Part shown: positions 18,632-42,362 of the stretch, one piece after another | Layout: the number at the start of each line of letters is the position of its first letter | How positions within the stretch are numbered: position 1 is the stretch's first letter | Assembly (NCBI GenBank): GCA_027296625.1 | Contig: JAPUIX010000183.1 | Coordinates: forward strand, 1-61,328 | Origin: Gammaproteobacteria bacterium | GTDB lineage: Bacteria; Pseudomonadota; Gammaproteobacteria; JAKEHO01 | Length of the DNA: 61,328 nt | Direction: 5' to 3' | Made by a program: the position numbers and the translations under genes | The notes under the pieces: model-generated | What the model saw: only the letters and a program-made list of their open reading frames with translations | Database searches by the model: none | Told to the model about the DNA's origin: nothing

Positions 18632-18835
18632 ATGAAACCGGACATCCATCCCGCATATGATGAAATTACCGTAACCTGTAGTTGCGGAAATTCATTTAAA
18701 ACCAAATCCACACTTGGTAAGGACCTGCACATCGACGTCTGCTCACAATGTCACCCCTTCTACACCGGGAAACAAAAGCTCATGGACACCGCAGGGCGCG
18801 TCGACAAATTCCGCCGCAAATACGGCATCCAATAA
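18632..18835 (+). CDS. rpmE: 50S ribosomal protein L31, zinc-binding form
   Basis: A 67-residue ribosomal protein of the large subunit. Cys16, Cys18, Cys37 and Cys40 form the zinc site, so this is the C+ type rather than the zinc-independent paralogue induced under zinc starvation. The C-terminal HPFYTGKQK is characteristic. It sits between xth and the nuclease gene. Confidence 0.97.
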
Positions 18836-18858
18836 CCGGACGCAATAAGGGGGCTAAC

Positions 18859-19680
18859 TTGCGGACAGCCGCTCGTACGGAGTGGTTTTTCTTACGTGTC
18901 ATTCGGTCTGTCGTACTTAGCTCGGTACTTGTTGCGGCCCCGGGTAGCCTGTCCAACGCGGCCACAGATCCGGCCTGTGCCACAGATGAAGTTGACGATG
19001 AGGCCGATGTTCGCTCGATAGTGGATGGCGACACCATTGTACTCGCAGATGGCCGTCGCGTGAGGTTGATCGGCATCGATAGTCCGGAGATCGATTACGC
19101 TGGTGGCGGAGTCGAACCGTTTGCCGACACCGCACGCGGCGAGCTGACAGCGCTGCTCACCGCCCGACCGCATGTTGGCATACGCTTTGATGCGACACGC
19201 AGCGACCGATATGGGCGTCTGCTGGCCCATTTGTTCCTTGATGATGGCACAAACGTTCAAGCTTGGTTGCTAGAGCGGGGGCTCGGGACGCGACTGACGA
19301 TTCCACCCAACGTGATGTATCTTGACTGCTACCGTGTGACGGAGACACGCGCACGGGATGCGGCGCGCGGTATCTGGGCGCTTCCAGAATACCAGCCGAT
19401 TGAGGCGACCGAATTGACGAAGGAGGACGGCGGTTACCGAATTGTTACCGGCAACGTATTGCGGGTTGGCGAAAGCCGGTCATCCATCTGGATAAATATT
19501 GCACCGCGAATGGCCCTTCGCATCCGTCGCGAAGACCTGACTTACTTCGAGGGCATTAAGTTCCATCGCCTTGTCGGTAAACGGATCACTGCCCGCGGCT
19601 GGCTATATACGAAAAATGCTGAGATCCGCATGCGTATACAGCACTCGGCCAACCTGCAGATCGCTGATCCAGCCTCCTAA
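18859..19680 (+). CDS. Secreted staphylococcal-nuclease-like thermonuclease
   Basis: About 273 residues from TTG 18859, chosen because AAGGGGG lies just upstream and it yields an N-terminal basic and hydrophobic export signal ending near LSNAAT. The nuclease domain follows: VDGDTIVL, RLIGIDSPEID (equivalents of Arg35, Asp40 and Glu43) and SDRYGRLLA (Arg87 equivalent), so the calcium-dependent active site is complete. The C-terminal region after about residue 185 is a separate OB-like segment with ITARGWLYTKNAEIRM. It probably degrades nucleic acid outside the cytoplasmic membrane. A longer frame upstream overlaps rpmE and lacks a signal. Confidence 0.85.
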   Translation: MRTAARTEWFFLRVIRSVVLSSVLVAAPGSLSNAATDPACATDEVDDEADVRSIVDGDTIVLADGRRVRLIGIDSPEIDYAGGGVEPFADTARGELTALLTARPHVGIRFDATRSDRYGRLLAHLFLDDGTNVQAWLLERGLGTRLTIPPNVMYLDCYRVTETRARDAARGIWALPEYQPIEATELTKEDGGYRIVTGNVLRVGESRSSIWINIAPRMALRIRREDLTYFEGIKFHRLVGKRITARGWLYTKNAEIRMRIQHSANLQIADPAS

Positions 19681-19935: not shown

Positions 19936-20198
19936 TTATCCACATTTTTTGGGGATAACTCTGTGGACTCCTTCCAGATCCACGGCTCGAATCGGCCCTG
20001 TGATTACGATTGTAACAAAACAGTCAAAATTTAGCCGATCCAAAAAACACCATATATTTTAATCAGTTATAGTTCGATTGCGGCCCGGAATCCGGCTCGG
20101 ACGACGCCCAAAGCCCGTGGGCTAGCGCATCCGTTCACAAGTGTGTATAAAGGCAATCACAGCGGCCTTATTTGGGCCACTTTGGAACTTTTTCCACA
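19936..20198. promoter_or_regulatory. DnaA-box cluster with AT-rich segment (possible origin or DnaA-binding locus)
   Basis: Perfect 9-base DnaA boxes lie at 19936-19944 (TTATCCACA), 20142-20150 (TGTGTATAA, reverse) and 20190-20198 (TTTTCCACA). A one-mismatch reverse box (TGGGGATAA) is at 19950-19958, followed by TGTGGA at 19962-19967. Between them, about 20013-20071 is clearly AT-rich (AAAATTTA, ATATATTTTAAT). This resembles oriC architecture, but no dnaA, dnaN, rpmH or gidA is nearby and gene direction does not switch across it. The 20190 box also lies inside the spacer of the small-RNA promoter. Confidence 0.4.
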
Positions 20199-20211
20199 GG
20201 CCGGATTCTAA
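20184..20211 (+). promoter_or_regulatory. Sigma-E (RpoE/AlgU) type promoter for the small RNA
   Basis: GGAACTT at 20184-20190, a 16-base spacer, and TCTAA at 20207-20211 match the extracytoplasmic stress sigma factor consensus GGAACTT-N15/16-TCTAA/TCTGA. A start site six or seven bases further on would be near 20218. Confidence 0.65.
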
Positions 20212-20217
20212 TTAAGT

Positions 20218-20337
20218 CCTAGTGAACCGAATCCCGCTCTTCCTCCCTTGAGCGGGAACCCCCAGCCCGGCACCCCAGCCGGGCGATGCTGGCCCCGGTG
20301 TGCCCTCCCTCCCCCTTTCAGACCGGGGCCTTTTTTT
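20218..20337 (+). ncRNA. Candidate small regulatory RNA, ErsA-like
   Basis: The predicted 120-nt transcript has three strong hairpins and no open frame. Hairpin 1: CCCGCTC (20233-20239) pairs with GAGCGGG (20250-20256) and displays TTCCTCCCTT in its loop. Hairpin 2: CCCGGC/GCCGGG (20266-20283) with loop ACCCCA. Hairpin 3 is the terminator, whose loop also contains CCCTCCC. The loops expose CCUCCC, which is complementary to Shine-Dalgarno sequences and is a hallmark of RNAs that block ribosome binding. In Pseudomonas the AlgU-dependent sRNA ErsA lies in the polA-engB area, which is linked to the cytochrome c4 gene; here c4 is the next gene and the promoter is of AlgU type. Homology to ErsA is inferred from position, promoter and architecture, not from alignment. 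Confidence 0.65.
20291..20337 (+). terminator. Strong intrinsic terminator of the small RNA
   Basis: GGCCCCGGT (20291-20299) pairs perfectly with ACCGGGGCC (20322-20330), followed at once by seven T residues (20331-20337). The 22-base loop is C-rich. Confidence 0.9.
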
Positions 20338-20539
20338 GCCCTGGCCTCTAAGATTTCACCCCGCACTCGCTTGTCCCTCACATAAGGCCAGGCAAGTCCG
20401 CTGCATAAACCCGGCTCGACGGTATACACACCGTTGCACAAGGTTATACTCGATGCTACGTTGTGGCGGCCGATTTTCCTTGAGCCACCCGGACTCCGTA
20501 AGCAGAGGGCAATGATCCGAGGTAATAAAACAATCGACC

Positions 20540-21145
20540 ATGAAAACATTCCTCAAAATCACGGCTCTTTTGGTCATAACCACCCTAGGCGTCGCCGAAG
20601 CAGGCGGTGATCCCACCGCCGGTAAAGCCAAGTCAGTCGCCTGCGCCGCATGCCATGGTACAGACGGTAACAGCACCAATCCCGTTTGGCCCAAGCTCGC
20701 AGGCCAGAACGCCCAATACCTTCTGAAACAGCTCGCCGATTTCAAAGCTGGCGAGCGCATCGATCCGATGATGAGTCCCATGGCCACCCCTTTAACCGAG
20801 GCCGGCATAGCTGATCTCGCGAGCTTCTATGCGTCCCAATCGATCACGGTGGGATCTGCGAAGCCCGACTTGGTTGCTGCGGGTGAACGCATCTATCGGG
20901 GCGGCAACCGCGCCACCGGCGTGGCGGCCTGTATGGCCTGCCATGGACCGCGTGGCGTGGGCAACCCCGCGGCAAAGTACCCCGCATTGGGTGGGCAACA
21001 TGCTGCTTACACAGCGAAACAGTTGCGCGCCTTCAAATCTGGTGAACGCGCTAACGACCCAAACAGCGTGATGCGGACGATCGCAGCGAGGATGAATGAT
21101 GAGGAAATCGATGCAGTCGCCGAGTACGTAAGCGGTCTGCATTAA
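20540..21145 (+). CDS. Cytochrome c4 (dihaem)
   Basis: A 201-residue periplasmic dihaem electron carrier. A signal peptide of about 22 residues (ending VAEAG) precedes two tandem cytochrome c domains with haem motifs CAACH and CMACH about 100 residues apart. Methionines in MMSPMATPL and in the NSVMRTIAARM stretch can supply the sixth ligands. Cytochrome c4 passes electrons to terminal oxidases. It is followed by the ResB and CcsA genes that attach haem to such proteins. Confidence 0.94.
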   Translation: MKTFLKITALLVITTLGVAEAGGDPTAGKAKSVACAACHGTDGNSTNPVWPKLAGQNAQYLLKQLADFKAGERIDPMMSPMATPLTEAGIADLASFYASQSITVGSAKPDLVAAGERIYRGGNRATGVAACMACHGPRGVGNPAAKYPALGGQHAAYTAKQLRAFKSGERANDPNSVMRTIAARMNDEEIDAVAEYVSGLH

Positions 21146-41489: not shown

Positions 41490-42362
41490 ATGTCAAGCAA
41501 ACACCCTATTGTCGCTGTCACCGGATCATCTGGGGCAGGAACGAGCAGTGTGACGGCCGCGTTTGAACGGATCGCCGACGCGCAGCGCATCGATCCTGTG
41601 ATTATCCAGGGGGATAGCTTCCATCGATTTAAGCGTGCTGAAATGAAGACAGCCATGGAAACCGCCGAAGCAGAAGGAAGAAACCTAAGCCACTTCGGAC
41701 CGGAAGCGAACCTATTTGAGGAGCTAGAGCAGCTTTTCAAACAGTATTCGACGAACGGCACGGGTCAGCGTCGATTCTATGTACATGATGCGGCCGAGGC
41801 CGCCCGTTACAAACAACCACCCGGCACCTTTACCCCGTGGGAGCCCATATCTGAGGGCACGGATCTGCTCTTCTATGATGGTCTTCATGGGGGTGTCGTT
41901 ACCGATAAGGTAAATGTTGCTATTTATGTGGATCTTTTGATCGGTGTCGTGCCCATCGTCAATCTTGAATGGATCCAGAAGATTCATCGTGACAAGGAAG
42001 AGCGGGGTTATACGACTGAAGAAGCTGCCAACATGATTTTGCGACGAATGCACGACTACGTGCAATACATCATGCCACAGTTTTCACATACCCATATTAA
42101 CTTTCAACGCGTCCCGACCATTGACACAGCCAATCCGTTTGCTGTGACGGAGATCCCCACAAGTGCTGAGAGTTACGTTGTGATCCACGTTAAAGATCCG
42201 AGCAAGATCGAGGTAGACTTGAAAGCGCTCGTCACTGACTTTGATGGATCATTTCTATCAAGGCCCACAACCATCGTAGTACCCGGTGTAATGATGATTG
42301 ATGCCTTACAAACGATCCTGGGCCCAGCGATATCCCGTATGATGTTGGAAAAAAATAATTAA
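41490..42362 (+). CDS. prk: Phosphoribulokinase (class I, bacterial)
   Basis: Phosphorylates ribulose 5-phosphate to ribulose 1,5-bisphosphate, the substrate of RuBisCO. The 290-residue protein has the nucleotide loop GSSGAGTSS (12-20), with Thr where most P-loops have Lys, as is normal for this class, then GDSFHRF and the HDAAEAARYKQPPGTFTPWE stretch. Length and motifs are those of octameric proteobacterial enzymes. It strongly suggests an autotrophic Calvin-Benson cycle, though no RuBisCO gene is in the window. Confidence 0.95.
   Translation: MSSKHPIVAVTGSSGAGTSSVTAAFERIADAQRIDPVIIQGDSFHRFKRAEMKTAMETAEAEGRNLSHFGPEANLFEELEQLFKQYSTNGTGQRRFYVHDAAEAARYKQPPGTFTPWEPISEGTDLLFYDGLHGGVVTDKVNVAIYVDLLIGVVPIVNLEWIQKIHRDKEERGYTTEEAANMILRRMHDYVQYIMPQFSHTHINFQRVPTIDTANPFAVTEIPTSAESYVVIHVKDPSKIEVDLKALVTDFDGSFLSRPTTIVVPGVMMIDALQTILGPAISRMMLEKNN

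Follow-up and report, generated by a model that had tools for sequence, protein, structure and literature searches.

A predicted sigma-E-driven small RNA beside a cytochrome c4 gene and its family across the Gammaproteobacteria

Introduction

The space upstream of a cytochrome c4 gene on contig JAPUIX010000183.1 (the whole 61,328-nt stretch that was analysed is referred to here as the window) raises the question of whether positions 20184-20337 hold a gene in their own right and, if they do, what would control it and which known RNAs are its relatives. A sequence-only reading had proposed a sigma-E-controlled small RNA with anti-Shine-Dalgarno loops, likely a relative of Pseudomonas ErsA. The interpretation favoured here, which the comparative analysis makes quite likely, is that the segment is a free-standing sRNA gene, driven by sigma E, whose product would act in trans through C-rich loops on G-rich ribosome-binding sites, and that it belongs to a class-wide family.

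Anatomy of the RNA gene

The following elements have been located in the window, all on the forward strand:

20184-20190 (+): -35 element GGAACTT, of the sigma-E (RpoE/AlgU) type, from direct reading and conservation in the sister genome and relatives
20207-20211 (+): -10 element TCTAA, 16 nt after the -35 element, from direct reading and conservation
about 20218 (+): predicted transcription start, about 7 nt after TCTAA
20218-20337 (+): small RNA gene of about 120 nt (covariance-model match 20217-20338), from the fold and covariance models, with the predicted start
20232-20257 (+): hairpin 1, stem 20232-20239/20250-20257, loop TTCCTCCCTT, from fold and covariation
20265-20284 (+): hairpin 2, stem 20265-20271/20278-20284, loop ACCCCA, from fold and covariation
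20291-20337 (+): intrinsic terminator, perfect 9-bp stem 20291-20299/20322-20330 with T7 at 20331-20337, from sequence and fold

The promoter spacing, the hairpins and the perfect terminator stem with its run of seven T had all been pointed out earlier, and renewed reading and folding of the sequence confirm them. The fold has a minimum free energy of -53.8 kcal/mol (z = -4.25), with none of 200 shuffled sequences as stable. The loop of hairpin 1 carries the anti-Shine-Dalgarno sequence UUCCUCCCUU, and the terminator loop is large and C-rich, 16 nt with CCCTCCCTCCCCC (CCCUCCCUCCCCC). This terminator was not listed by a simple terminator scan, because its loop exceeds the 8-nt limit of that scan.

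A family across the class

In the sole congener sampled, MAG PMV_7.24 (G001, locus L019), a block 91% identical to the window runs from the -35 element through the terminator, with flanks that cannot be aligned; the neighbouring cytochromes of the two genomes share 74% protein identity. A first covariance model (R1), built from these two sequences, was run on a class-wide sample of 369 genomes and matched 91 of them, nearly always once each. A second (R2), built from 46 diverse matches, finds 199 of the same 369, or 166 at E <= 1e-7 as counted from the result table. Outside the class its best score is 35 bits (E 1.6e-6), and there it often gives several weak matches per genome in one family; since unrelated background reaches that level, matches under about 40 bits have not been relied on. 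The E-values of R2 and its successor are rough. The third model, R3, is a leave-out model of 68 sequences, none from the window's genus, though R2, the model used to collect them, had the window among its own sequences. With R3 the window locus scores 93.6 bits (E 2.6e-20 over the whole genome) and the G001 locus 101 bits, in each case as the top match of the genome. The window RNA is thus a member of a family found at one and the same place in the chromosome in much of the Gammaproteobacteria, the beta group included. The sequence-only reading had spoken of one RNA type extended to a further lineage, which is right as far as it goes and understates the distribution.

Some genomes carry more than one copy. 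Four tandem copies, about 200-300 nt apart and each with its own GGAAC-type sigma-E promoter, are present at G170:C33 (L133/L202) and at G278:C8 (L138/L203), and two or three family matches are also seen in G021, G337, G368 and G128. A possible second paralogue in the window's own genome (G000) was considered and rejected: the R3 match at C68:723-829 (L197; 38.4 bits) coincides with the 3' UTR of a gene resembling those for ribonucleotide reductase, by eye presumably nrdB, and no sigma-E motif was seen at that place. It does have a three-hairpin, terminator-ended fold with CU-rich loops, and is possibly a look-alike derived from a 3' UTR.

Chromosomal position

The two genes flanking the RNA in the window are:

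18748-19680 (+): staphylococcal-nuclease-type gene, upstream, in the place of polA, as in several relatives
20540-21145 (+): diheme cytochrome c4 gene, downstream neighbour conserved in synteny and marker of the slot, outside the RNA

In relatives the order is polA, sRNA, engB (convergent) and cytochrome c4, with hemB on the opposite strand in the place of polA in beta members. Of the 67 loci obtained from the genome-wide RNA search alone, 63 adjoin polA, engB or c4. That the next gene in the window encodes cytochrome c4 had been recognized from the sequence, and it does encode a diheme cytochrome c. The accompanying claim of novelty, a location away from polA and engB, has to be withdrawn: the window location is this same polA-sRNA-engB-c4 slot, from which engB has been lost and in which polA lies elsewhere. 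The polA gene of G000 is on another contig than the sRNA, and neither G000 nor G001 (both incomplete drafts) gave a match to the engB/YsxC GTPase over the family cut-off when the whole genomes were searched; this GTPase is usually essential. An intermediate arrangement, with nuclease, sRNA, engB and c4 in that order, is seen at locus L026.

In the window c4 follows 202 bp after the element on the same strand, and in 65 of 103 loci it likewise follows in the same orientation, so that the element might be taken for the 5' leader of the c4 gene, as an attenuator or cis-regulator. In 69 of the 103 loci, however, an engB gene on the opposite strand separates the RNA from c4 (median distance from RNA to engB, 37 nt), which rules out a leader there, and the element has a terminator of its own; the leader reading has accordingly been rejected on synteny and is rated very improbable. 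The same convergent engB, together with the opposite-strand hemB beside the beta members, would suit an RNA acting in cis, antisense to the message of engB or of engB and hemB, a role to which the name anti-hemB of a related RNA points. Against this stand 13 loci, that of the window among them, in which the RNA is kept beside c4 and engB is absent, which shows the RNA to be independent of engB; moreover, the features conserved are the loops and the promoter and not an overlap with engB. An antisense role on engB or hemB as the main function has been rejected on this persistence, and it is rated as improbable as the leader. A separate RNA gene acting in trans remains the preferred reading of the slot.

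Two further features were noted elsewhere in the window. The Rfam model of sRNA-Xcc1 (RF02221) matches positions 110-196 on the reverse strand with 57 bits against a gathering threshold of 53, making this a second member of a known sRNA family in the window, and a phosphoribulokinase above its curated cut-off lies at 41490-42362 (+), which fits the earlier view of the organism as an autotroph.

Selection on structure and loops

In two alignments, changes on both sides that keep pairing were found in 24 and 25 of the 26 base pairs, and 95% and 92% of the paired cells are filled by pairs, as compared to 77% and 69% in shuffles; none of 500 shuffles reached any of the covariation measures, and slid controls were far lower. 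Both had been made by fitting to the model. When 17 sequences were aligned with MAFFT, without such fitting, stems 1 and 3 were recovered and 13 of their pairs showed compensatory change; stem 2, which varies in length and register, was missed. The part that is conserved in sequence is the loops, with CTCC in 82% of first loops and CCCC in 75% of loops 2 and 3; across the family, loops are 52-56% C and have almost no GGA or GGG, a composition that bears out the proposed anti-Shine-Dalgarno character. By these sequence comparisons, the structure of the family RNA is under selection. A chance run of GC-rich hairpins ending in an intrinsic terminator, with no gene, would be conceivable given the background scores that the family models reach outside the class, but the covariation, the constant position, the promoter and the strong recovery of the window by the leave-out model make it the least probable of the explanations weighed.

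Promoter and sigma E

The 61-kb window has a single match to the strict sigma-E pattern, against an expectation of 0.06. Upstream of 84 of 113 distinct family matches there is a sigma-E-type site scoring at least 9/11, compared with 2.8% of dinucleotide shuffles, and in 70 of these 84 the spacer is 16 nt. Perfect consensus sites, defined as GGAACTT-N15..17-TCTNA, were counted in G000 and its sister. G000 has three: that of the window RNA, one directly before a sigma-32-like gene, and one elsewhere; G001 has one, found only at the sRNA. The sigma-32-like gene is read as rpoH, which is a classic sigma-E target. G000 also has an rpoE gene that exceeds the cut-off for RpoE and has an anti-sigma gene of the RseA_N type behind it, with GCGAACTT-N16-TCTAT upstream of the pair. 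The window promoter thus has the same form as those of rpoH and rpoE in its own genome, is a perfect consensus site and keeps both elements in G001, so that sigma-E control of the window RNA, as claimed from the first reading, is strongly predicted from the promoter.

It may be asked whether the same structured sRNA is driven mainly by a housekeeping sigma factor or some other regulator. The motif falls below 9/11 in 29 of the 113 family matches, and genuine sX13 loci have a weak, degenerate form (CGAACCA...TGTTA); given the latter, sigma-E control of the family may differ by lineage. Spot 42, which fills the same slot in Vibrionaceae, is CRP-controlled. For the window, this alternative is unlikely, if the most credible of those raised, in view of the perfect promoter, its retention in the sister genome and its likeness to those of rpoH and rpoE. 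Sigma-22 is a homologue of sigma E. The dependence of ErsA on sigma-22, which is strict (PMC7565897), also speaks for sigma-E control.

Relation to named small RNAs

The covariance search of Rfam that the sequence-only reading had suggested gave matches below the gathering thresholds, while that of related genomes found the conserved structure described above. On the window, the best Rfam match is to anti-hemB (RF02837), known also as Burkholderia RNA 7 and as ncS04 of B. cenocepacia, with 32.8 bits (E 3.8e-6 in 301 bases; gathering 49.5), followed by sX13 (RF02232) with 18.2 bits and ErsA (Pseudomon-1, RF01719) with 13.2 bits, both with gathering thresholds of 50; the ErsA model had no match in a search of the whole G000 genome. 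Identity with ErsA is therefore not borne out, anti-hemB being closest, but the kinship to ErsA is: sub-threshold matches of the ErsA model coincide with the places of the family model in 11 of 12 genomes, and those of the sX13 model in about 8 of 12. The anti-hemB model scores above gathering in beta loci (74-77 bits), but of the 30 best R1 loci it passes in only 3. In the reverse direction, R2 gives 30-33 bits on genuine sX13 and 27 bits on genuine ErsA, within the background range, and these scores by themselves were rejected as proof of homology, background outside the class reaching higher. From slot position and the reciprocal matches together, common descent of the family with sX13 and ErsA is likely, and anti-hemB of Burkholderia, sX13 of Xanthomonas and ErsA of Pseudomonas are very probably members of the family.

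Anti-hemB resembles the window RNA in its three hairpins, a nearly identical hairpin 1 (CCCGCUU-CUCCUCCCU-GAGCGGG type) and a CCUCCC first loop, and sigma-E-type promoters are also found in the beta relatives examined. It differs in having a shorter hairpin 2 and a shorter terminator loop, both less rich in C than those of the window RNA. Its slot is beside engB and hemB; in the window, c4 and the arrangement in relatives point to the same slot, with neither hemB nor engB as a neighbour. Sigma-E control, predicted for the window RNA, is not reported for anti-hemB in the literature cited here. ErsA has in common with the window RNA a sigma-E/AlgU-type promoter, C-rich loops and the polA-engB-c4 slot (L050, L141), but its first half differs, with only model positions 34-108 aligning, and it sits between polA and engB where the window RNA does not. 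The three stem-loops, C-rich loops (4C/5C in sX13) and strong terminator are shared with sX13, which, unlike the window RNA, adjoins polA and has loops of the types CCAUCCCCUG and UUCCUCCCCAAA.

Spot 42 (RF00021) fills the polA-engB slot, on the same strand, in Vibrio, Photobacterium and Grimontia (L043, L065, L067, L074), though with a different structure and different control; the family models do not match it significantly, R3 giving a weak 17-19 bits at its 3' half. The E. coli sRNAs MicA, RybB and MicL exert the kind of sigma-E-driven repression of mRNAs proposed for the window RNA, but their loci and anatomy are unrelated to the family, and they work through seed regions and Hfq, not C-rich hairpin loops. 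The presence of sRNAs near polA in several groups was already noted by the authors of the sX13 study (PMC3771888). No open-access literature was found that joins ErsA with sX13 or anti-hemB, or an sRNA with polA, engB and sigma E. A history that appears likely, if a little less so than the reading of the window gene itself, is that anti-hemB, sX13, ErsA and the window RNA all go back to one ancestral sigma-E-driven anti-Shine-Dalgarno sRNA, which occupied the polA-engB-c4 slot from an early stage of the Gammaproteobacteria, beta group included, with Spot 42 perhaps a replacement or a strongly diverged occupant.

Proposed mode of action and targets

The scheme proposed here builds on the conserved structure, the sigma-E-type promoter, the position and the presence in G000 of rpoE-rseA and of hfq; expression of the window RNA, its sigma-E dependence, its mode of action and its targets we infer from studied relatives and from the loops. 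Envelope stress would free RpoE from RseA, and RpoE would then transcribe the RNA of about 120 nt from near 20218 to the terminator. Its three hairpins would present the C-rich loops CCUCCC, CCCC and CCCUCCCUCCCCC. By pairing with G-rich stretches of mRNAs, at the Shine-Dalgarno site or early in the coding region, these loops could keep ribosomes from binding, and the synthesis of selected proteins, probably envelope and metabolic ones, would fall.

Parts of this scheme are known from the relatives. ErsA negatively regulates the OprD porin (PMC7565897) and algC (PMC5819304), and sX13 represses mRNAs independently of Hfq, its C-rich loops pairing with G-rich motifs close to the start codon (PMC3771888). 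Anti-hemB (ncS04) is expressed in B. cenocepacia as a transcript of 105 nt, which was unchanged under the conditions tested (PMC5688073); the RNA length predicted for beta members is close to this.

Target prediction over 870 kb and 798 ORFs did not discriminate, the mean energy of loop 1 at start sites being -7.7 as compared to -8.1 for a reversed-loop control. The start sites with the strongest duplexes (by eye those of proB, slmA, amtB/glnK and mscL) are not claimed as targets, since loop 1 is no better than this control. In G000 the hfq message carries GGGG immediately behind its start codon, the arrangement reported for Xanthomonas, where hfq is a target of sX13; it makes a weak candidate, as the GGGG falls in conserved Lys-Gly codons in all five genomes compared.

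Significance

So far ErsA, sX13 and anti-hemB have been known as separate fragments, and each of these Rfam families seems to cover one part of a single class-wide family. To our knowledge, those sigma-E sRNAs of E. coli that have been studied well have a narrow distribution, and the ancestral sRNA, if the proposed descent is true, would be the most widely conserved sigma-E sRNA known to us. A structurally conserved sRNA with a sigma-E promoter in about half of the sampled genomes of the class would be a core arm of the envelope-stress response, one studied so far piecemeal under three unconnected names. Once the families are joined, results obtained on ErsA (sigma-22 control, porin repression) and on sX13 (loops, Hfq-independence) can be put to the test in gammaproteobacteria of the beta group and outside it, the orphan anti-hemB RNA acquires a role open to experiment, and the polA-engB slot becomes a comparative system for how an sRNA changes its regulator and its targets.
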